In this document: positions 2,704-44,511 of the stretch, piece after piece
Layout of the letters: each line of letters opens with the position of its first letter
Numbering within the stretch: the stretch's first letter is position 1
Source: Candidatus Anoxymicrobium japonicum
GTDB lineage: Bacteria > Actinomycetota > Geothermincolia > Fen-727 > Anoxymicrobiaceae
NCBI GenBank assembly: GCA_002843005.1
Contig: PHEX01000005.1
Span: forward strand, 1-44,798
Direction: 5' to 3'
DNA length: 44,798 nucleotides
Made by a program: the position numbers and the translations under genes
Notes under the pieces: generated by a model
The model's input: only the letters and a program-made list of their open reading frames with translations
Told to the model about the DNA's origin: nothing
The model's database searches: none

Positions 2704-3035
2704 CAACTCTCTCAAGATTACCTCATATTCGTCTCGCTAATTCGTGGCTTAGTCCAGCAAGCTGAGGAATGGTACACAACGCCACGTTTCCTGCGCTCGT
2801 CCGGCAAGACAGTATCTTCCTGGTGAAAAAATTAATATATCTCCGCCAGGTGGTTGAATTCGTCAGTCATGTGGTATAAATTCTACGATTAGTGGTAAGC
2901 ATGCGGCTTGCGATGGCGGATATTTGTGATGGGACTGAAAGCCCCCTTTCGAGGGCTTTCTCTTGAAAAAACGCAACACAGGGATCGTACCCCTGTGTTG
3001 CGTTTTGCTCTTTTTGTCTTGACAATGGAGAACAC
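2704..3035. other. Intergenic leader with promoter-like boxes and two hairpins
   Basis: This 332-nt gap separates the divergent lepB and radical SAM genes. On the plus strand it contains TTGAAT at about 2854 followed by a TATAAA-type box near 2873, a small hairpin (GTAAGC/GCTTGC, about 2895-2911), an 8-bp hairpin GAAAGCCC/GGGCTTTC (2937-2960), and then a palindromic repeat element (2967-3006) ending 30 nt before the ATG at 3036. The order promoter, hairpin, hairpin, gene would suit a leader RNA or attenuator. I do not recognise a known riboswitch consensus in it. No protein-coding gene is supported here. Confidence 0.4.
2967..3006. repeat. GGGGTCAG-family palindromic element, AACGCAACAC arm type
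   Basis: An imperfect palindrome with arms ACGCAACACAGGG (2971-2983) and CCCTGTGTTGCGT (2991-3003), flanked by A and T runs. The arms match the copies at 21036-21077 and 36401-36439, but the central core reads GATCGTAC instead of GGTCAGAC, so this is a diverged copy. On either strand it would form a strong hairpin followed by U residues. It lies just upstream of the radical SAM gene, so it may affect read-through into it. Confidence 0.8.
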
Positions 3036-5607: not shown

Positions 5608-5660
5608 AGGGGTCAGGCACCGTCTACCTTTGCGTCTACCGCTACGCGGTAGACGCAAAG
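5608..5660. repeat. GGGGTCAGGCACCGTCTACC-type element with hairpin
   Basis: Begins with the 20-nt motif GGGGTCAGGCACCGTCTACC (about 5609-5628), which is nearly identical to copies at 11993-12019 and 25497-25543. A 15-bp perfect stem follows, from CTTTGCGTCTACCGC (5628-5642) to its complement at 5646-5660. It lies directly 3' of the zinc-finger gene and before the convergent PHP gene, where it could terminate transcription. Confidence 0.8.
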
Positions 5661-14588: not shown

Positions 14589-15056
14589 ATGGATCAAAAA
14601 ATCGAGATAAAAGAGTACCCGCCGCAACCGGTGCTGTCGATGCGCGGACAGATTCAACTCGCGGAGCTTGCCGGGTTTTTTGGTGACGCTTTCTCGAAGT
14701 TGTTGCCTTATCTGGCGGGTCTGAGCGAGTCCCCTGTAGCCCCGCTTTTCGCCGTTTACCACGGCGCGCCCACCGAGCAGGGTGTTGACGTCGAGGTTTG
14801 CGTCCCTACCGGCGCGCTGCTTGCCGGCTCTGGCGAGATCAAGGCGTCCGAGTTGCCCGGCGGCGATTTCGCCTCAACAATTCACGCCGGACCGTACGAG
14901 CGGATATCAAGCGTTTACGAGGATATCATGAAATGGATGGCCGAGAACGGATACCGTCCCTCAGGCCCCTCCAGGGAGGTATATATCGTTGGCGCGGGCC
15001 AGGCCAACCCGGCCGACTACATAACCGAGGTGCTGTTTCCAATAGCAAAAACATAG
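14589..15056 (+). CDS. GyrI-like/AraC effector-binding domain protein
   Basis: A 155-residue single-domain protein of the GyrI-like small-molecule-binding superfamily. The pattern of an N-terminal strand with a Pro-rich start (IEIKEYPPQP), a central LFAVYHG and a C-terminal strand (REVYIVG) fits stand-alone members, which bind or hydrolyse small hydrophobic ligands. AAGGAGG lies 4-5 nt upstream of the ATG. It is 59 nt downstream of the P-type ATPase and may share its transcript. A palindromic element begins 4 nt after the stop codon. Confidence 0.85.
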   Translation: MDQKIEIKEYPPQPVLSMRGQIQLAELAGFFGDAFSKLLPYLAGLSESPVAPLFAVYHGAPTEQGVDVEVCVPTGALLAGSGEIKASELPGGDFASTIHAGPYERISSVYEDIMKWMAENGYRPSGPSREVYIVGAGQANPADYITEVLFPIAKT

Positions 15057-15060
15057 CCTG

Positions 15061-15096
15061 AACGCAAAAAGGGGTCAGACTCCTTTTTGCGTTTTT
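15061..15096. repeat. Palindromic element, AACGCAAAAA arm type, shared terminator
   Basis: Perfect 12-bp arms AACGCAAAAAGG (15061-15072) and CCTTTTTGCGTT (15082-15093) around the core GGTCAGACT, followed by a T-run. It fills nearly the entire gap between two convergent genes and encodes the end of the lipid kinase on the minus strand. It is a likely bidirectional Rho-independent terminator. Confidence 0.85.
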
Positions 15097-15980
15097 ACGC
15101 TCAACGCGCGCGGCGCGACGCTTATGTTGAAAACCTCGCCTTTCCCTGCGATGCGAGCCTCCCCGTCCGACTGCGTGTACACTTTCTCCAAGCATTCGAT
15201 CACGATTTCACGCGCGTCGTACTCGTCCATCTGACGGACCCAGGTGTGCTTGCCCGTAGTTGACATGCCAAACAGCAGCAGGGCCTTCAATCGGTTCATC
15301 ATTGTGAAGGTGACGAGATTCATGACGCCGTCGTCCATCAACGCCCGCGGCATCATCTTCATGTACCTGCCGTAGCTACCGGCGTTGCCCGCCACGACCA
15401 GGAGGAAGTCGCCTTCGATCTTTTCGTCACCAACAGTGATCGCGAGCCGCGAGCGCGGTGGTGGCTCGAACAGCATCGAGAGGCCGTGGTACCAGTACGC
15501 CAGAAGGCGCAAATGTTTGCTCTGATAACTTCGGTACGCGATCTCGGCGTCCACGCCCACACCGGCCGTAACACCCACAAACCGGCCGTTGACGCGCAGA
15601 AGGTCTATGGCTTTTTCCTCTTCGCCGAGTAGAACCTCGAGGGCTTTCTCCCGATCGCGAGGAATGCCCATGTTGCGGGCGAAGTCGTCGGCTGTTCCGC
15701 TCGGAAACACCGCGAGCTTCCTTCCCGGCTGGCTCGAGTTCATGATGCCGTTGATGACTTCGTTGACGGTTCCGTCGCCGCCGACCGCGACCACCACATC
15801 CACGGCTTCAGCCCAGTTTGCCACGAGATCTTGCGCGTGCCCGATTTTCTCGGTGAAAAGAGCGTTGTGCTCGATGCCCATCTTTCGAAGTTTGTTGAGC
15901 AGCCATATCGCCTGCCGCTGAGCGTGCCCGCCCCGCCCCACAGGATTGACGACTATCAGGTAACGCTCGTCGGTGTCCAC
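15075..15980 (-). CDS. Diacylglycerol kinase family lipid kinase
   Basis: Phosphorylates diacylglycerol or a related lipid with ATP. The 301 residues have the DAGK catalytic domain: VNPVGRGG near the N-terminus, the nucleotide-binding GGDGTVNEVING (about residues 73-84), and FPSGTADDFARNMG (family consensus GTxNDFAR; here A-D replaces x-N). I prefer the GTG at 15980, with GGAGG 5 nt upstream, over the ATG at 16052. The last residues KTQKGV and the TGA come from a palindromic repeat insertion, so the original C-terminus was lost or extended. Transcribed divergently from the gene at 16103. Confidence 0.9.
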   Translation of the reverse strand: MDTDERYLIVVNPVGRGGHAQRQAIWLLNKLRKMGIEHNALFTEKIGHAQDLVANWAEAVDVVVAVGGDGTVNEVINGIMNSSQPGRKLAVFPSGTADDFARNMGIPRDREKALEVLLGEEEKAIDLLRVNGRFVGVTAGVGVDAEIAYRSYQSKHLRLLAYWYHGLSMLFEPPPRSRLAITVGDEKIEGDFLLVVAGNAGSYGRYMKMMPRALMDDGVMNLVTFTMMNRLKALLLFGMSTTGKHTWVRQMDEYDAREIVIECLEKVYTQSDGEARIAGKGEVFNISVAPRALSVKTQKGV

Positions 15981-16087
15981 CAAAACCTCCGTGCCGCGAC
16001 CGGCCTGGATACTGTACGCAAAGATATGATAACACCACAGCAGGTCAGGCATTGCCTCGACACCGGCGACATCAGGAAACTTCCTTC

Positions 16088-16096
16088 TGCTATCAT
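16088..16096 (+). promoter_or_regulatory. Extended -10 box with apparent leaderless start
   Basis: TGCTATCAT ends exactly 6 nt before the ATG at 16103, placing the transcription start at or next to the A of the start codon. No Shine-Dalgarno sequence is present. The genes at 32840 and 36381 have the same spacing. Confidence 0.5.
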
Positions 16097-16102
16097 TCGT
16101 TT

Positions 16103-18559
16103 ATGATTCACCGAGAAACACGGCTGAAAATAAGCGCTGCTGCAGTACTGGCGATTGCGATCCTGCTGTCCTGGTCGGCATGTTTCGGCGCGGGAGGTTC
16201 AGTGGCGCACGGGCGCGCCGTGGCAGCCGCGCGCGGCAAAGTCGTTCTGGTGATCATCGACCGCATAGGAATTGACGACCTGACCAACACCACCGCCCCC
16301 AACTTGATGAAGCTCATCGAACGCGGCGGCGTCGGCCTTATGAACGCCCGGGCCAAGTACGACCTGTACGGGCTGGGAAGCTATCTCGTGATCGGCGCCG
16401 GCGGGCGAGCGCTCGGTGGAGCGAACGCCGGTCTCTCCTTCAACTCCAGTGAACGCCTGCTGGAACACGATGGCAACGTCATAAAATCGAGCGACATATT
16501 CAGGTGGCGCACCGGAAAGCGCGCACCTGCGGGCGGGGTCGTAAACCTTTACATCGAGGAGATGAAAAAGAAGTCTGATACTCCGCAGGCTACCAGTACT
16601 CCCGGGCTTTTGGGGCAAATCCTGAAAGTCGGGGGCAAGAGGATCGCGGTTCTCGGCAACGCGGACTCATTGACACCGGCTTCCTCAATTGACATTTCAC
16701 CGATCGATGAAGCGCGACAGGCGCGAGGCGAGGAGTTCACGTTCACGGATAGCGAAACGGACGGCGAGCCCGGGGCGCCGGATTCTAAAGGATCATCATC
16801 TTATCCGCTGATGTCGTCAATCCATCGAGAGGTGGCTTCAATCGCGATGGACGAGTGTGGCGCTGTGCCCGCTGGCGACGTATCGAGAGCCCTGACCGGC
16901 AATTTCTCTCATCGCGGCGTGACAACAAACTTCGCCAGGCTCGAGCGGCGGGTCGCCGCGCTGCTGCCCTCGTCGGACGTGATCGTCGTCGATGCCGGCC
17001 AGACCTCGAGGGTCGATGAGCAGGCTAACTTCTTCTCGGCGCCGGAGCTGGATCGAGCGCGAGGCGAGGCGCTGCGGGAGTGCGACCGCGCGCTTGGCCG
17101 GATTTCAGGCATGCTGGACGCAAAAAAAGACCTGATAATCGTTTGTTCGCCGACCCCTACACGAAAAATGATTGAAGACGGTGAACTCCTGACTCCTCTG
17201 GTCGTGGCTGGTCCAGGATTCTCTCCCGGCAATTACCTGCGATCCGGCACGACCAGGAGAACCGGTCTGGTTTCCAACTACGACATCGCGCCCGCAATCA
17301 TCAAATATCTCGGACTGGAACCGCCGGCCGTCATGGACGGCACTCCGCTATCGACCGGTGATCCGGCGCCGGGTCTTGCGGAATTAAGAGCCTTTCGCGA
17401 TCGTGCGGTTGGGGCGTTCAATACGCGCAGGGCCATGGTCAGGGTGTACGTCATCGCCGCGATGTGTGTCATCGCCCTTTTATTTCTTGTCATGCTGGCG
17501 CGAGAGGACCTCGCGTGCCGCCACCCGTTCTTCATGTCAGCAGCCCTCCTTGCCGTGCTGGTCGGGCCGCTTATCTGGCTTGCGGCGGGCGCGCTCAGCA
17601 GGTTCTCATTAGCGACGGTCATAGCGATCTCGGTCGCCGCGAGCGCGCTTTTAGGCCTTGCCTCTCTGATGCTTCGTGCCCGCGACACAAAACCGCACGT
17701 TGATATCCAACTCAACGGAAATCTGGCGGACTCAATACTCGCTGTCTCAGGCGTCACCTTGCTGTTGATACTCATTGACACATTGATGGGTTCTCCGTTG
17801 ATGACTTTCAGCGCTTTCGGCGCCAGCGCGATCATGGGCGACCGCTACTACGGCGTCGGCAACCTCTACATGGGTTTCGCGGTGGCGTCCGCCATTCTTT
17901 TCACCTGCCTCGCGATCCAGTTCCACGCGTCAAGCCTCGACAAACCGTGGAAGAGGCGCTTGCTTGCCGGGGTAGTTCTGGGCGTCACTATTTTTGTCAT
18001 AGGTTTCCCACGCCTCGGCGCCAATGTCGGTGGCCTCATCGCCGCCGCCGCCGCCTCGCTGGTTATTTTTATGAAGTTGGAGAGGAAGCCCATGACTCTC
18101 AAGCGCGCGGCAACCGTTTCACTCGCGCTGATGTTGTGTGTTGGAGGACTCTTGCTGATCGACTCGGTCATGCCGGGCTCAGCGTCACACGCGGGGCGGG
18201 CTGCCGGCAAGATACAGAGTGGCGGCCTGTCAGCGTTAATCTCGCAAGTCGGCCGCAAGCTGTCCGCCAACTGGGCGCTCACCTGGATGTCGATCTGGCG
18301 ACTGCTGCTGCTGCTTGGCGCGGTCGCGTGGCTTGTCTTCAACTGGAAGTTCGGCATTCTGAAACGCGCAAGAGATGAATATCCGTATCTCAACGCGGGC
18401 CTCATTGGGATGACAGTGGGCGTTGTTGTCGCGTGGATTTCCAATGATTCCGGGATAGAGGCAGCCGCGGCGATGTCCGTGTTTCTCTTTGTGCCATGCT
18501 TTCTCATGCTGATACCGTGGTCTAAAAAACAGCCGAGGTCGCCGAAGTTGAATGGATAA
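16103..18559 (+). CDS. Large membrane protein with alkaline-phosphatase-superfamily domain
   Basis: An 818-residue protein of unknown function. It has an N-terminal signal or anchor (about residues 8-30), an extracytoplasmic domain of about 400 residues related to the alkaline phosphatase/sulfatase superfamily (KVVLVIIDRIGIDD at the start, SNYDIAPAIIKYLGLEPP near the end), and about ten membrane helices in the C-terminal half. The metal-binding SDHG motif expected late in the domain is replaced by CSPTPTR, so catalytic activity is doubtful. Its last 8 nt overlap the next gene, suggesting coupling. The first codon follows an extended -10 box at leaderless spacing. Confidence 0.75.
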   Translation: MIHRETRLKISAAAVLAIAILLSWSACFGAGGSVAHGRAVAAARGKVVLVIIDRIGIDDLTNTTAPNLMKLIERGGVGLMNARAKYDLYGLGSYLVIGAGGRALGGANAGLSFNSSERLLEHDGNVIKSSDIFRWRTGKRAPAGGVVNLYIEEMKKKSDTPQATSTPGLLGQILKVGGKRIAVLGNADSLTPASSIDISPIDEARQARGEEFTFTDSETDGEPGAPDSKGSSSYPLMSSIHREVASIAMDECGAVPAGDVSRALTGNFSHRGVTTNFARLERRVAALLPSSDVIVVDAGQTSRVDEQANFFSAPELDRARGEALRECDRALGRISGMLDAKKDLIIVCSPTPTRKMIEDGELLTPLVVAGPGFSPGNYLRSGTTRRTGLVSNYDIAPAIIKYLGLEPPAVMDGTPLSTGDPAPGLAELRAFRDRAVGAFNTRRAMVRVYVIAAMCVIALLFLVMLAREDLACRHPFFMSAALLAVLVGPLIWLAAGALSRFSLATVIAISVAASALLGLASLMLRARDTKPHVDIQLNGNLADSILAVSGVTLLLILIDTLMGSPLMTFSAFGASAIMGDRYYGVGNLYMGFAVASAILFTCLAIQFHASSLDKPWKRRLLAGVVLGVTIFVIGFPRLGANVGGLIAAAAASLVIFMKLERKPMTLKRAATVSLALMLCVGGLLLIDSVMPGSASHAGRAAGKIQSGGLSALISQVGRKLSANWALTWMSIWRLLLLLGAVAWLVFNWKFGILKRARDEYPYLNAGLIGMTVGVVVAWISNDSGIEAAAAMSVFLFVPCFLMLIPWSKKQPRSPKLNG

Positions 18560-19178
18560 GATTAAAGAAGCTGACGAAAACAAGGTTCAGAAGCGCATCG
18601 TGAAGGCCGAGAAAAAAGCGATGAAGATCGCGGGCGTCGACCAGGATCTCATCCACCACTTCTGGGAACTCGTAAACATGTTCCCCAAAATATCGACCCC
18701 TGAGCTCGAAAGTCGCATCGAGCGCTTCATCATGACGGCGGCGCCGGGACAACTCTTCGTGATGCAACGTGCTATCTTCGCGGAAGCAACGCGTTACTTA
18801 CTCGAGGATCAGCGCGTGAAGTACGTGATGGGCCGCCTGAGCGGCAAGCGGATAGGTCTTGCGATCGCGGGAGAGTACGAGTCCACCGTGACACTCGACG
18901 GCACACGTTTCAAAATCGAGCGCGGCATAAAGGACGGTATTCCCATCATATCCGTGGAATCACGGAAGGATTACGCTGACGCCGTCCTGCTCAAGAAAGA
19001 TCCAATCAAGATGATCCTCCGGCGACGGATACGGGCCAGCAAAAAATTCACGCTGCTGAGATGGGGGCTGCCGCACGTCGATCTTCTCCGGGATAGAAGC
19101 TTGTTTGAGAAGTACCTCACCCATCAACCCGAAATTGAACGCGCAGTAGAAGAGAACCTCGAAAAAATGGGGTATTGA
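18552..19178 (+). CDS. Conserved hypothetical protein, SCP2-like fold possible
   Basis: A 208-residue soluble protein without a motif I can name firmly. The middle (LSGKRIGLAIAGEYESTVTL) followed by a segment that reads like DP..M..RR.I shows the strand pattern of SCP2/sterol-carrier lipid-binding domains, but this is weak. A charged, possibly coiled N-terminus precedes it. The ATG overlaps the stop of the large membrane protein by 8 nt, so the two are probably made together. The A of its TGA stop is the first base of a palindromic element. Confidence 0.7.
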   Translation: MDKIKEADENKVQKRIVKAEKKAMKIAGVDQDLIHHFWELVNMFPKISTPELESRIERFIMTAAPGQLFVMQRAIFAEATRYLLEDQRVKYVMGRLSGKRIGLAIAGEYESTVTLDGTRFKIERGIKDGIPIISVESRKDYADAVLLKKDPIKMILRRRIRASKKFTLLRWGLPHVDLLRDRSLFEKYLTHQPEIERAVEENLEKMGY

Positions 19179-19215
19179 AACGCATAATGGGGTCAAACCA
19201 TTTTATGCGTTTTTA
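19178..19215. repeat. Palindromic element, AACGCATAAT arm type, between convergent stops
   Basis: AAACGCATAATGGGGTCAAA continues into CC and a facing arm ending GCGTTTTT. The element occupies the whole gap between two convergent genes. The left gene's TGA ends on its first base, and the right gene's TAA shares its last bases. Its arm type matches the two copies at 44353-44455. It is a likely bidirectional terminator. Confidence 0.85.
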
Positions 19216-19608
19216 CTCTTTGGCGGGGCGCTTGGGCACCAGTTCGGATAGCGACGGCGGCGCGGGTTTTTTGGCAGGTGGCCGGACCGTAGCTGAAGGC
19301 TTCTTTCGAGTCGCGATTTTCTTCTCTATATCCGCGACCCTGCGCTCAACGCTCATGAGATCGGACCTCGTTACAATGCCCGTGTTCTCCAGCGCGCGCT
19401 GCACCGTCCTTGCAACAACCTGTGAAAACTCGTCACCCTTTGAGACCAGCCCCTTCTTCTCCCCCGCCATTTTCCTGCGCCCCTCAGGGGTAAGACTCTT
19501 GCCCTTTTCGACAAGGCGCTCGGCCGCCTTTTCTATCTCTTCCTGAAGCGCCACGACACCACCAACCATCAGGTAAGGGATTCCGGAGAGCTCTCTCTTC
19601 TCTGCCAT
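19213..19608 (-). CDS. Phasin-like protein (second of a pair)
   Basis: A 131-residue mostly helical protein with an alanine/lysine/proline-rich C-terminal tail ending KRPAKE. Residues 20-95 look like the phasin or PHA-synthesis regulator type (long amphipathic helices followed by a short heptad segment). The GIVTRSDLMSVERRVADIE stretch matches the gene at 19618 (GMVTRADLARIQRRIDEID), so the two are paralogues. AGGAGGAGACA precedes the ATG. It lies 9 nt downstream of its partner. The stop TAA is completed by the A-run of a palindromic element. Confidence 0.75.
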   Translation of the reverse strand: MAEKRELSGIPYLMVGGVVALQEEIEKAAERLVEKGKSLTPEGRRKMAGEKKGLVSKGDEFSQVVARTVQRALENTGIVTRSDLMSVERRVADIEKKIATRKKPSATVRPPAKKPAPPSLSELVPKRPAKE

Positions 19609-19617
19609 TGTCTCCTC

Positions 19618-19965
19618 CTATTTGTCTTTCCCCAGGGCGCGATCTATCTCGTCGATCCGTCGCTGGATCCTGGCCAGATCCGCGCGCGTCACCATGCCGG
19701 CCGACGAGAGGATTTTCCTGACTTCGCCGCCGATTGACTGGATGAATTCCTCCTGCCCTTTCTGTCCCCTGGATATCATGTCGGCGACAGTCGGCTTCTC
19801 TCGCGTACGCCTTATCAGCTCGGATACCTGCGGGCTTCCGGCCACATCCTCCTGTCCCATCCGCTTCCTGCCCTTGGCGATGAGAGCGTCATAGACTTCG
19901 CCATAAAGCCCACCGATGGTACTGGAAACGCCTTCGAACAAGTACTGTACCTCTTTCACTCCCAT
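19618..19965 (-). CDS. Phasin-like protein (first of a pair)
   Basis: A 115-residue helical protein resembling phasin or polyhydroxyalkanoate granule-associated proteins: a hydrophobic helix (FEGVSSTIGGLYGEVYDALI), a basic turn, and a C-terminal coiled segment that is shared with the following gene. I start at the ATG at 19965 (GAGGAG about 9 nt upstream); the longer reading frame to 20040 has no good ribosome site. Such pairs often coat storage granules or regulate their formation, but no PHA synthase is encoded here. Confidence 0.75.
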   Translation of the reverse strand: MGVKEVQYLFEGVSSTIGGLYGEVYDALIAKGRKRMGQEDVAGSPQVSELIRRTREKPTVADMISRGQKGQEEFIQSIGGEVRKILSSAGMVTRADLARIQRRIDEIDRALGKDK

Positions 19966-20146
19966 CTCTATACACTCCTCATGTCGGCGGACATATCTTA
20001 TGAATATTTGCGAGCCGGCGTCCTTTGAATCGAAGCGCAAGCGCCTTCACTGTACTATCCAATTGGAGTTACAGTCAATGGGAAGATGGGCGACTGAGCA
20101 TCTCAAGACAGGTCAAAACAAGAAAGAGGCGCTTTCCGCATTGATT

Positions 20147-20155
20147 TGATATAAT
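20147..20155 (+). promoter_or_regulatory. Extended -10 promoter of lipoprotein gene
   Basis: TGATATAAT, a consensus TATAAT with the TGn extension, lies 34 nt before the ATG at 20189. The -35 region is poor, as expected for extended -10 promoters. Confidence 0.6.
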
Positions 20156-20188
20156 CAAAATTAAGATTCTCAATCAGGGAGGTTTGTG

Positions 20189-21037
20189 ATGAAGAAGATC
20201 GGTATCGTGTTTGTTGCGGCATTTGTTGTCGCCACACTGTTTGTGGCGGGTTGCGGCGGCAAGAAGCCCGTCGCGTCAAATAACGCCAAAGATCTCTTGA
20301 AAAAGAGCCAGACCAAGATGAAGAGCGTCAAGTCGATGAAGATCAACGGGAACTACTCCGTGGAGACGCCGGAGGCGGAGACAAAGAAAGAATCCGCTTC
20401 TTTCGTAGCGGAGATCAAGCGCCTCGGCAAAGATGATGCCGATGCGCACATGACGATGACACCGGAATCCGGCAAAGCGGAAGAGATGTTCATGGTTGGC
20501 GGTTACGCGTACAACAATGATCCGGCAAGCGGCTGGACCAAAACGAAGGTCGGATCTTCCAGCGACCTTCAGAAGTCGGGAGTGGTAACTCCCGACATGA
20601 TCTCCGACATGTCCAAATTCGCCCAGAACATGCGGTTGGATCCGGAGGAAGGTGGCAAGTACGTCATCGCTTTTGACGTCGGTTCAATGTTCTTTGAGCA
20701 GATGCTCGACCAGGCCGCGAGTAGCGCGACGGCGCAAGGTTCGAGCCCGGATGGGGATGCCACGAAGAAGCAGGCTCAGGCAATGAAAGACATGCTGAAA
20801 GGTCTCAAAATGGCGCTCGTTTACAAGATGGACAAGAAATCGCTGCTTGCCGACAGCGCGGTTGTCACCGCTTCTCTGAATGGCTCCGCTTTCGGCAATG
20901 TCAAATTTGATATGACCACAACGTTCAGCGATTACAACGCGCCTGTATCGATAACGCTTCCACCTGAAGCGCAAAACGCGAAGGAAATCCAGCCCGGGCC
21001 CGGTGGCGTCCCCGGTGTTCCAGGGATGGGATTTTAA
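20189..21037 (+). CDS. Lipoprotein, LppX/LolA-like fold likely
   Basis: A 282-residue exported lipoprotein: signal peptide with lipobox VAGC (cysteine about residue 21), then a domain starting AKDLLKKSQTKMKSVKSMK, which is the typical opening of LolA/LppX/LprG-like lipid-binding folds and related DUF lipoproteins. It is followed by a Gly/Pro-rich tail. GGGAGG lies 6 nt upstream of the ATG; the preceding in-frame GTG is less likely. A role in carrying lipid across the envelope is inferred from fold resemblance only. The TAA stop is formed by T plus the first A bases of a palindromic element. Confidence 0.8.
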   Translation: MKKIGIVFVAAFVVATLFVAGCGGKKPVASNNAKDLLKKSQTKMKSVKSMKINGNYSVETPEAETKKESASFVAEIKRLGKDDADAHMTMTPESGKAEEMFMVGGYAYNNDPASGWTKTKVGSSSDLQKSGVVTPDMISDMSKFAQNMRLDPEEGGKYVIAFDVGSMFFEQMLDQAASSATAQGSSPDGDATKKQAQAMKDMLKGLKMALVYKMDKKSLLADSAVVTASLNGSAFGNVKFDMTTTFSDYNAPVSITLPPEAQNAKEIQPGPGGVPGVPGMGF

Positions 21038-21077
21038 AACGCAACACCGGGGGCCTGACCCCATGTGTTGCGTTTTT
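21036..21077. repeat. Palindromic element, AACGCAACAC arm type, between convergent stops
   Basis: Arms AAAACGCAACAC and GTGTTGCGTTTT flank the core CGGGGGCCTGACCCCAT. It fills the gap between the stop codons of the lipoprotein gene (TAA 21035-21037) and the 23-residue-repeat gene (TAA 21076-21078), contributing bases to both. It is a likely bidirectional terminator. Confidence 0.85.
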
Positions 21078-21978
21078 AACGGGGAAGCACGTACGGGTGG
21101 TTATTCGATCTGGTGGGCAGGCGGCTCTTGTCCATGCGACTCGCGCCCAGCATCTGAACGCTTCCCTTCATTAATTTATGCTTCATCGGCACCGAGTACG
21201 CCATCTCGATGGCGACCTGCCCCAGCACCCTGTTCTTTGCCAGCTTGTTCACAATAGAAATAAGCGTCTCGGGACTCAGCGAGTCGAGAACCCTTTCGAG
21301 AAGTGAAGCAATCTCGTCGACGGCGTCGGCGATGACGGCGGGATCCACCTGGCGGATCAACTGGCTCGCCCAGTCGCCGATAGCGTTCACGGTGTCCGCG
21401 ATGGCCTTCGGGTCGATCTCGTTTGCCACAGCCGCGAGCCACCCGGCATTGGCGTTGACGCTCGAGGCCACTACCCCGGGGTCGATTTTTGAAAGCATCT
21501 CGGTAATCCATGCGGCGTTGTTGTTCGCGACACGGGCGACGAGGTCGGGTGATATTTTTGAGGTGAGCCGTACGACAAACTCGGGATTCTCGTTGACGGC
21601 GCGCGCAAGCACTTCCGGGTCGAGCGTCCGCATGAGACCACCTATGAATCCGGGCGTATCGCCTATGACTTCCGCGATCACATCAGGCGACAGCGCGTCT
21701 ATTGTCCTTATCAGGAAGTCGGGGCTGAGGTTGAGCGCTTCGGCGATCGGCCCGGGATCGATCTCTCTGAGATAATCAACCAGTATCTGCGGGTTGCCGC
21801 CCAGCGCCCCCGCGACGACAACCGGATCTACCTGCTCCATAACTTTCGCCAGAAAGTCCGGGTTGTCATTGATGGCGTCCGCCACGACTCTCGGGGGGAG
21901 CGAAGCCATTGCGCCCGACAGGAGCTTGCCGTACCCAACCAGGGCGCCCGTCGCGCGGCCAATCATCTCGAGTATCAT
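21076..21978 (-). CDS. Protein of ten tandem 23-residue helical repeats
   Basis: A 300-residue protein whose residues about 27-255 consist of ten consecutive units of 23 residues with no gaps. The consensus is hydrophobic-D/S-P-x-h-h-A-x-h-h-N-x-N-P-x-F-h-x-x-h-h-x-x. A clean unit is LDPEVLARAVNENPEFVV plus RLTSK. Each unit would form two short helices broken at the DP and NP positions, giving an alpha-solenoid. The N-terminus (IGRATGALVGYGKLL) is weakly hydrophobic. The C-terminus is basic and contains ends such as MKHKLMKGSVQMLG. I do not recognise the family; the function is unknown. It lies downstream of the exported module protein at 22025 on the same strand. Confidence 0.8.
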   Translation of the reverse strand: MILEMIGRATGALVGYGKLLSGAMASLPPRVVADAINDNPDFLAKVMEQVDPVVVAGALGGNPQILVDYLREIDPGPIAEALNLSPDFLIRTIDALSPDVIAEVIGDTPGFIGGLMRTLDPEVLARAVNENPEFVVRLTSKISPDLVARVANNNAAWITEMLSKIDPGVVASSVNANAGWLAAVANEIDPKAIADTVNAIGDWASQLIRQVDPAVIADAVDEIASLLERVLDSLSPETLISIVNKLAKNRVLGQVAIEMAYSVPMKHKLMKGSVQMLGASRMDKSRLPTRSNNHPYVLPR

Positions 21979-25463: not shown

Positions 25464-25489
25464 CGAACCCCCTTTCTTTCCCGACTTAA

Positions 25490-25545
25490 CTTTGGAGTCA
25501 GGCACCGTCTACCTCTCCGCAGTAAAGGTAGACGGTGCCTGACCC
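25490..25545. repeat. GGGTCAGGCACCGTCTACC-type palindrome
   Basis: Perfect 18-bp arms (25497-25514 and 25526-25543) with an 11-nt loop, preceded by TTAACTTTGGA and followed by T5 (25546-25550). It encodes the last residues of the DUF89 protein on the minus strand and lies directly upstream of the acyl-CoA ligase gene. Confidence 0.85.
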
Positions 25546-26432
25546 TTTTTCAGCAAAAGCGAGACTCCTTCTTTGCAGGCGTTGATCGCGGCCACGGCGG
25601 GGCACTTCGCCTGAAACATGAAGAACACCTCGCGGGAACACTCGTCAAGCTCGTCGAGCGTTTCCCAGTTTCCCTGGCCTTTCGAGATGACCAGATCGGC
25701 CGCCTCAAAGATCTCGCGGAACTCACGTGTCGTCCGCGCCAGTACCGTCCCCGGCATCTCCGAGCCGCTCGAGATGATCCGCGCTACCGCGTCAATGCCC
25801 ACCTGGCGCGCCTCGGCCTCGGTTACATCGTTGATGATTGGCGCCGCGCGCACAGCCACGGTGACGTCCAGTTCCCCGGCGCGCAAGCGACGCATCGTTT
25901 CTATCAGCACCAGGTCGAACACGATCTCGCCGCTGTTATCCGCCACAAGCAGCACGGTATCCGCGCGGGCTAGGCTCGAAGCGAACGCGTCGAATTGCTC
26001 GAGCCCGTTCCGCGGCGCCACAGCCTCTATTACGCTCTTCTCGAGGTCGAAAGACGCCTGCGCCCCCGTGTCAACCACGTTCCCGGCGATTGCGAGCCTC
26101 ACCGCCATGAGTAGCGGGTCGGCGGCACCGGCGACTGTCTCGCGCAGCCAGGGGAGTATCGCCTCTACCGCCTGGTTCTGCTGCCGTTTTTGTTGCGCGA
26201 AAGGGTCTTGAACTTGTGATATCTCGCGGATCATCCGGTAGATTCCCTCGCCAGCCTCGGGTGGCGTTATGTCGCACCGGCTTTCCACCAGCAACCTCGC
26301 GGCCTCACGGAGACAGCGGCGCTGGAACTCCTCGCCGTCGCTGATGAGCCTCGCGGCCGAGAGCGCCTGTCTCATAGCGCAAACATAGCAATCTGGAAGT
26401 ATCTTCAACAGTTTGTTCACTTTCAAACGCAA
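25509..26432 (-). CDS. DUF89/ARMT1-like damage-control phosphatase
   Basis: A 307-residue member of the DUF89 family, metal-dependent phosphatases proposed to remove damaged or excess sugar phosphates. The early CYVC (CxxC) is typical of the prokaryotic subgroup. The metal and phosphate motifs are visible as LLVADNSGEIVFDLVL and VISKGQGNWETL. The start is uncertain: the listed TTG lacks a ribosome site, and GTG at 26420 or TTG at 26408 (giving MKILPDCYVC) are alternatives. The last 12 or so residues (GQAPSTFTAER) and the stop are encoded by a palindromic repeat, so the native end was replaced. Lies upstream of the acyl-CoA ligase. Confidence 0.85.
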   Translation of the reverse strand: MRLKVNKLLKILPDCYVCAMRQALSAARLISDGEEFQRRCLREAARLLVESRCDITPPEAGEGIYRMIREISQVQDPFAQQKRQQNQAVEAILPWLRETVAGAADPLLMAVRLAIAGNVVDTGAQASFDLEKSVIEAVAPRNGLEQFDAFASSLARADTVLLVADNSGEIVFDLVLIETMRRLRAGELDVTVAVRAAPIINDVTEAEARQVGIDAVARIISSGSEMPGTVLARTTREFREIFEAADLVISKGQGNWETLDELDECSREVFFMFQAKCPAVAAINACKEGVSLLLKKGQAPSTFTAER

Positions 26433-26453
26433 CCAGGTTTCAATAGTTGCACG

Positions 26454-26554
26454 CTTAACTTTGAGGTCAGGTCTTTTTTCTAAAGTCGATCGTCCGTCCA
26501 GACGGCGCCTGACCCCTCTTAAACTTTAAAAAAAGACCTGCTCCCAAAGTTAAG
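26454..26554. repeat. Composite palindromic element of about 100 bp
   Basis: Starts CTTAACTTTGAGGTCAGGTC and ends with the complementary form (AAAGTTAAG), so its ends are inverted repeats of about 30 bp. Inside are a GTCCGTCCAGA box and a GGGGTCAG half-core facing the other way. It looks like one small transposon-like unit. Its end provides the TAA stop of the radical SAM gene at 26550. Confidence 0.75.
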
Positions 26555-27281
26555 CGGATCTGATTCTGGTTGCACCGCCACGGATTGTCGAGGTCGGCAC
26601 GTACTGTCGCGCCTGCTTCAGCATGACCTGCATATCTTCGTCGGTAAACGGTCTCAGCGTCGAATACCTGGGGTCCAGTGTGTCCACCGGGCTGAAATGT
26701 TGCAAAATGAAGCGGCTCTCGCCCTTTAGATACTCCGCTATCTTCGCGACCTCGGCGGGAGAGTGCATGAGCGGCACGACTGTCGTCCGGAATTCGTGCT
26801 GTACTGTCGATGATCTCAGCATGTCAATGCTTTCGCGCACAAAACCTATCAGATCCGGTCGGTCGATCCCCGTCGCGATGCGATAGTGGCCCTCATCGAG
26901 GCTCGCCTTCACATCCATGGCCACGTAATCCACCAGCCCGTCCGAAAGAAGCCGCTCGAGGGCGGCTGGAAAGCTGCCGTTGGTGTCGAGTTTGACTTTC
27001 ACTCCCAGCGATCGCAGATCCGCGCATAGCCCCGGCAGATCCTCGTGCATGCACGGCTCGCCTCCGGTAATACATACTCCCTCTACCCAGCTTATCCGCT
27101 CTCTCAGGTAGTCGGCGATGACTGAGAAAGGCAACGTCTCCAATCTCCCGGGCGCGAGAACCAGCTCCGCGTTCTGGCAGAAAGGGCACCTGAAGTTACA
27201 CCCGGGGAGGAACACGGTCGACGCCAGCATCCCCTCCCAATCGAGCATGGTATTGGGGATGAAGCCTTTTATCTCAAGCAA
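26550..27281 (-). CDS. Radical SAM activating enzyme (anaerobic NrdG/PflA type)
   Basis: A 243-residue protein with the compact activating-enzyme fold. The cluster motif CNFRCPFC has cysteines about residues 28, 32 and 35. The GITGGEP-like motif is seen as CITGGEPCMHEDLP, and KLDTNGS follows. Its length and lack of extra ferredoxin clusters fit the anaerobic ribonucleotide reductase activase family, which installs a glycyl radical on NrdD; no NrdD is in the window. The start is a TTG, weakly supported. It lies 18 nt downstream of thioredoxin on the same strand, plausible since thioredoxin can supply electrons. The TAA stop comes from the repeat motif CTTAACTTT. Confidence 0.87.
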   Translation of the reverse strand: MLEIKGFIPNTMLDWEGMLASTVFLPGCNFRCPFCQNAELVLAPGRLETLPFSVIADYLRERISWVEGVCITGGEPCMHEDLPGLCADLRSLGVKVKLDTNGSFPAALERLLSDGLVDYVAMDVKASLDEGHYRIATGIDRPDLIGFVRESIDMLRSSTVQHEFRTTVVPLMHSPAEVAKIAEYLKGESRFILQHFSPVDTLDPRYSTLRPFTDEDMQVMLKQARQYVPTSTIRGGATRIRSA

Positions 27282-30910: not shown

Positions 30911-31067
30911 TAACTTTCGGGGGGTCAGGTCTTTTTTCTAAAAGTCGGTACACGTTATCCGAATTGAAGGTCGGCGACTTAATATATCTTCCACGTTATG
31001 TCAGATATTCTGATATGCCATGGCAAATTTGTTAAGTTCTACGCGAGCAACTGACCCCGGAGGTTAA
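30911..31067. repeat. Composite element of about 157 bp with inverted ends
   Basis: Left end TTAACTTTCGGGGGGTCAGG; right end its inverted form (CTGACCCCGGAGGTTAA, 31051-31067). The first 50 bp, including CTAAAAGTCGGTACACGTT, are nearly identical to 44462-44511. The interior contains two palindromes, TCAGATATTCTGA (31001-31013) and TGCCATGGCA (31016-31025). It has no coding capacity. It fills the space between tRNA-Arg and the metallophosphoesterase 3' end. Confidence 0.75.
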
Positions 31068-36396: not shown

Positions 36397-36400
36397 GAGG

Positions 36401-36439
36401 AAACGCAACACAGGGGTCAGACCCCTTGTGTTGCGTTTT
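36401..36439. repeat. Palindromic element, AACGCAACAC arm type
   Basis: AAACGCAACACAGGGGTCAG followed by the facing arm ACCCCTTGTGTTGCGTTTT. It is the best-preserved copy of this arm type in the window and carries the full GGGGTCAGACCCC core. It sits 9 nt after the stop codon of the upstream module gene and just before the promoter of the next one. Confidence 0.88.
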
Positions 36440-44352: not shown

Positions 44353-44389
44353 AAAACGCATAATGGGGTCAAACCAAATTATGCGTTTT
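44353..44389. repeat. Palindromic element, AACGCATAAT arm type (left copy)
   Basis: AAAACGCATAATGGGGTCAA followed by the arm ending ATTATGCGTTTT. It is the exact reverse complement of the copy at 44419-44455 over 37 nt, and it is itself nearly palindromic. A close relative is at 19178-19215. Confidence 0.88.
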
Positions 44390-44418
44390 TATGGGCGCTC
44401 CTATCATTTATCTGTTGC

Positions 44419-44455
44419 AAAACGCATAATTTGGTTTGACCCCATTATGCGTTTT
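44419..44455. repeat. Palindromic element, AACGCATAAT arm type (right copy, inverted)
   Basis: The exact inverted copy of 44353-44389, 29 nt away. The pair lies between the anti-sigma gene and the convergent GerMN gene. Confidence 0.88.
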
Positions 44456-44461
44456 CATCCA

Positions 44462-44511
44462 GATAACGTGTACCGACTTTTAGAAAAAAGACCTGACCCC
44501 CGGAAGTTAAG
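44462..44511. repeat. GGGGTCAGGTCTTTTTTC-type element end
   Basis: On the minus strand this reads CTTAACTTCCGGGGGTCAGG and continues through TCTTTTTTCTAAAAGTCGGT to ACACGTTATC, nearly identical to 30911-30960. The TTAAC gives the TAA stop of the GerMN gene. Confidence 0.8.

Follow-up and report, generated by a model that had tools for sequence, protein, structure and literature searches.

The window, by which we mean the whole 44,798-nucleotide stretch of DNA analysed, contains three gene pairs that, as the preliminary description had it, are all convergent and all carry a palindromic element at the junction. The genes and elements (types A, A' and B are characterized below) are:

2968..3006: type A copy with the core GGGATCGTACCCC, in a divergent gap
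14589..15056, plus strand: GyrI-like gene, from ATG at 14589 to TAG at 15054-15056, ending 4 nt short of the element (pair 1)
15061..15096: type A' palindrome AACGCAAAAA-GGGGTCAGACTCC-TTTTTGCGTTTTT, between the GyrI-like and diacylglycerol kinase genes
15075..15980, minus strand: diacylglycerol kinase gene; the element supplies its final codons and its TGA (15077-15075)
18552..19178, plus strand: conserved protein gene with no Pfam match; TGA at 19176-19178, the native ...MGY-TGA being conserved in relatives (pair 2)
19178..19214: type B singlet AAACGCATAATGGGGTCAAACCATTTTATGCGTTTTT, occupying the whole stop-to-stop gap
19213..19608, minus strand: phasin-like gene, its TAA (19215-19213) adjoining the element
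20189..21037, plus strand: DUF6612 gene; TAA at 21035-21037, made of a host T and AA of the element (pair 3)
21036..21077: type A palindrome AAAACGCAACACCGGGGGCCTGACCCCATGTGTTGCGTTTTT, occupying the whole stop-to-stop gap
21076..21978, minus strand: conserved protein gene with no Pfam match; TAA at 21076-21078, ending ...VLPR-TAA at the element
36400..36439: type A copy with a minus-strand gene on either side, reaching into the start of the 34369-36411 gene
44353..44389: left-hand type B element of an inverted pair (REPIN)
44419..44455: right-hand type B element of the 44353-44455 REPIN, whose spacer TTTATGGGCGCTCCTATCATTTATCTGTTGCAA is found in other copies too

The description had further taken each gap to consist of the element alone, from one stop codon to the other, with the stop in most cases formed from a host base and the A-run or core of the element. 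The first part stands for pairs 2 and 3. Pair 1 had been misread: the TGA at 15059-15061 is not in frame with the GyrI-like gene, whose TAG lies outside the element, and the stop of the diacylglycerol kinase gene (TGA 15077-15075) sits within the GGGGTCA core, not at 15097-15095. The kinase ends in ALSV-KTQKGV and its orthologues diverge after ALSV; by this comparison, the element has evidently taken the place of the native C-terminus. The proteins of relatives corresponding to the 21076-21978 gene of pair 3 are 2-3 residues longer at the C-terminus. Neither pair 1 nor pair 3 is conserved as a pair in the relatives, which hence offer no empty site there.

Pair 2 allows the comparison with element-less relatives that the description had proposed, and there the native stop was found at the same codon, with no element at the junction. 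Both stops match the best tblastn matches in the relative G004, and the syntenic junction, free of an element, is -7, +6 and -7 nt wide in G002, G006 and G007, respectively; therefore, the gap of pair 2 was probably near zero before the element arrived. The formation of a stop from a host base and the A-run is seen at several junctions; the plus-strand stop of pair 2, however, is native, as its ...MGY-stop occurs in the relatives lacking the element. In G009 and G001 the same junction bears other GGGGTCAG (GGGGTCA) elements.

The three elements are members of a large repeat family. Across the 1.77 Mb draft genome the pattern AACGCAN{15,29}TGCGTT has 122 matches, against 2 for a reversed control pattern. 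The outer ends of the palindromes are AAAACGCA...TGCGTTTT, and the genome has about 120 copies in total, mostly in gaps or at gene ends. The GGGGTCA core is common to types A, A' and B, and the arms are AACGCAACA in type A, AACGCAAAAA in type A' and AACGCATAAT in type B. Distinct sequences number 48 among the 50 type A copies (A' included) and 20 among the 64 type B copies. Type B forms 20 inverted pairs (+/- orientation) with a conserved spacer of 30-33 nt: this is the arrangement of a REPIN, an inverted pair of REPs with a conserved spacer (PMC3116915). No such pairing with a spacer was seen for type A; since deletion between two REPs yields a long palindrome holding one REP (PMC3116915), an internal deletion may account for this type. 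The type B inverted pair around its 30-33 nt spacer is probably the mobile unit; the singlets, and type A with its greater divergence, are probably remnants or copies with internal deletions. At the type A joints (1-4 nt, from outer arm to core) the two sides are identical in 5 of 40 cases (shuffle mean 1.4), and at G000:C1:27909-27961 a type A element is apparently split by a second, partial copy.

The core links the family to a group of Y1 (HUH) tyrosine transposases. GGGGWSAS is the motif of the terminal inverted repeats at genes of the TIRYTs, RAYT-related Y1 transposases (PMC3733652; PMC6006769); type A GGGGTCAG mostly fits GGGG[AT][CG]A[CG], and type B GGGGTCAA misfits at the last position. 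The genome encodes a single Y1_Tnp protein of 183 aa, with a B element 96 nt upstream of the gene and none found downstream. This protein scores 66 bits over the whole NCBIfam REP_Tyr_transpos model, for which the cut-off is 80, and a sequence search found no relative of it in the PDB. In six relatives (G002, G005, G006, G009, G016 and G017) Y1 transposase genes are flanked by inverted GGGGTCAGGTC / GACCTGACCCC. The likeness to the TIRYT/TIRtron systems (PMC3733652; TnpA_REP subclass 2.1, PMC6006769) extends over the GGGGTCA(G/A) core, the inverted copies around the relatives' Y1 genes, and the dispersed copies and inverted dimers. Unlike in those systems, the core here is embedded in a longer palindrome that has an A-run/T-run at its ends, and the Y1 protein of this genome is without the long C-terminal part seen in its relatives. 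With the RAYT-associated REPs and REPINs (PMC3116915; PMC3733652) the elements share palindromes of 20-40 nt, spaced inverted pairs, termini giving stop codons, and a location mostly near 3' ends between convergent or codirectional genes. They differ from these in having T-tails and in lacking the GTAG/GTGG tag: no GTAG, GTGG or CGTC was found at the hairpin foot, the outer flank of the A and B copies being AAAACGCA. A DNA-uptake-like repeat was considered as well and set aside because of the palindromic core, the REPIN pairing and the Y1 association.

We studied the positions of the elements relative to genes in 1.03 Mb, sampled in stretches, with 917 genes predicted by a simple custom hexamer caller, so that individual gene ends may be wrong; REPINs were merged and counted as one A/B unit. 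Of 85 convergent gaps, 28 contain an A/B unit, where even placement over non-coding DNA would give 6.5; divergent gaps are depleted (9 units, 18 expected). Outside the divergent gaps, 53 of 76 A/B units lie within -25 to +10 nt of a stop, where random placement gives 7, with a maximum of 18 in 5000 trials. The focus on gene ends is hence strongly borne out to within a few bases, and also beyond the window. About 40 gene stops are inside an element or at its boundary; they come from a T or TG joined to the A-run, from the GCA-TAA of the B arm, or from the GCC-TGA of the A core. In a few cases a gene is translated through the entire element and stops just past it. Among the genes ending in or at an element, 9 of 28 share their exact last residue with orthologues, compared with 45% of controls. 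Taken together, we consider it quite probable that the elements are of the REP/REPIN class, belong with the GGGGWSAS (TIRYT) group of Y1 transposases, and are retained at gene ends, where they sometimes provide the stop codon.

It is possible, though doubtful, that they are instead the standard palindromic two-way terminators of the host, maintained by selection and placed next to stops as any terminator would be. The structure is suggestive in this regard: the hairpins have energies of -12 to -26 kcal/mol with a T-run on both strands, the three elements of the window fold better than shuffled sequences on both strands (RNA folding z of -3.6 to -5.7), and most copies (39 of 50 A, 50 of 63 B) have tails on both strands that clear a TransTerm-like cut-off. 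A hairpin/T-tract terminator is predicted at 164 gene ends of the sample, and 70 of these have an element nearby. Furthermore, the A/B elements are somewhat more stop-focused than type C, a family without a T-run (53 of 76 versus 46 of 92 near a stop, p = 0.012), and somewhat more concentrated in convergent gaps (p = 0.042). Against selection, the T-run in codirectional gaps is 4.07 long on the transcribed side and 4.04 on the other, with no bias for A and B tested alone either; thus, the length comparison bears no sign of selection for the transcribed-side T-run. T-less GGGGTCA families are found at stops too, as are those of G002, mostly without an A-run, and terminators need neither near-identical sequences nor REPIN pairing. 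The three window elements were absent from the output of a simple terminator scan, probably because their A- and T-runs pair with each other, and Rho is encoded in the genome. What the elements share with bidirectional Rho-independent terminators is a hairpin followed by a T-run, on both strands and between convergent genes; unlike those, they are scattered copies of a family that has a conserved core and REPIN pairing, and the A/B elements give no sign of T-run selection. The preliminary description of the elements as two-way Rho-independent terminators is therefore sound in its anatomy, and from the hairpins and T-runs two-way termination is plausible; termination as the reason for their location is not supported, given the unbiased T-runs and the presence of type C at gene ends. 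Tools of the RepRanger type exclude terminators by their T-tails (PMC12306157).

The fit between element and stop was also measured from the ends of the elements. We counted ends at most 3 nt from a stop, with even placement over -3 to 60 nt as the null. In G002, which belongs to another genus, 400 kb contain at least four GGGGTCA families, often in inverted pairs: family F1 has 20 gene-facing ends, 17 of them this close (2.2 expected; TGA, TAA and TAG are all seen), and F2 has 9, of which 8 are. The corresponding figures for the present genome (G000) are 12 of 30 for type B, 9 of 17 for one side of type A and 5 of 16 for the other, and 14 of 59 for type C; the chance expectation is 1-3 each for F1, F2, B and the 9-of-17 side of A. 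This exact abutment is tighter than predicted by a mere tolerance of insertions at gene ends. It might point to insertion aimed at gene ends by a machinery that recognises pre-existing terminator hairpins or single-stranded DNA, and such a reading also has in its favour that hits scale per junction, not per base of gap, and that the elements of G009 and G001 at the pair 2 junction are different ones. We regard it as unlikely: gene-distant copies have a stop-like trinucleotide at their outer boundary in only 2 of 29, 1 of 30 and 2 of 20 cases, and biased retention could produce a similar pattern. The gene-distant copies thereby exclude a stop-like target motif, and imply that there is no sequence target.

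A further proposal places the effect in translation: by analogy with the E. coli REPs near stop codons (PMC12306157, cited in its support), a hairpin at the stop codon might stall the last ribosome and lower expression. The distance between element and stop, mostly below 10 nt, would suit such a role; many elements, however, fall inside the end of the coding sequence and become part of what is translated, and we think it quite improbable as the explanation. At the speculative end, transposition could put REPIN-like elements exactly behind stops with no sequence target, for instance via a coupling to the termination of translation or transcription. We give this little credence; were it true, mobile hairpins would be ready-made gene ends.

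Under the preferred reading, the elements would be dispersed REP/REPIN-class palindromes with the GGGGWSAS-like core of RAYT/TIRYT Y1 (HUH) tyrosine transposases, inserted or retained almost only at gene 3' ends, such that the outer end of the repeat comes to lie at the stop or a few bases from it. Insertion within the last codons would create a new stop from the A-run (TAA), the GCA-TAA of the B arm or the TGA of the core. An element-only gap would arise where convergent genes nearly touched beforehand, largely by insertion into junctions that had a width of about 0 nt to begin with. There is no need to suppose that host DNA between stop and element was trimmed, since the host residuals of convergent gaps with and without an element do not differ significantly. 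As the RNA hairpin is followed by U4-U5 on both strands, two-way intrinsic termination would be a likely by-product. Movement of the elements is inferred; the transposase would be its putative driver, and termination in the cell is likewise a prediction. Counting against this reading are the transposase score below the RAYT cut-off, the B copy on just one side of its gene, the missing GTAG/GTGG tag, and an abutment to stop codons closer than mere tolerance would give.

A location of REPs near 3' ends, and REP termini that often give (TAG) stop codons, have already been reported (PMC3733652). Within the open-access literature searched, and as far as we found, the exact coincidence with stops in several families and two genera is new, as is the built-in A-run/T-run. 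That the repeat boundary coincides with a stop within 3 nt far above expectation, across several GGGGTCA families of two genera, means that insertion targeting can be tested directly against retention. Should the hairpins terminate transcription, a large part of the predicted intrinsic terminators of this genome would come from a single mobile-type repeat.

Other repeats are present in the window, and an Rfam search of it returned one tRNA and nothing else. The type C family GGGGTCAGGCACCGTCTAC occurs at 5609, 6493, 12000 and 25486-25549; it is the commoner family, with 108 clusters in 1.03 Mb, has mostly an A before GGGG, and is also focused on gene ends. Another family, GGGGTCAGGTCTTTTTTCTAAA with the outer arms CTTAACTT, is found at 26452-26556, 30916-30964 and 44457-44505. 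Between 22025 and 37700, direct repeats of about 306 nt lie inside three large minus-strand genes and correspond to a repeated protein domain.
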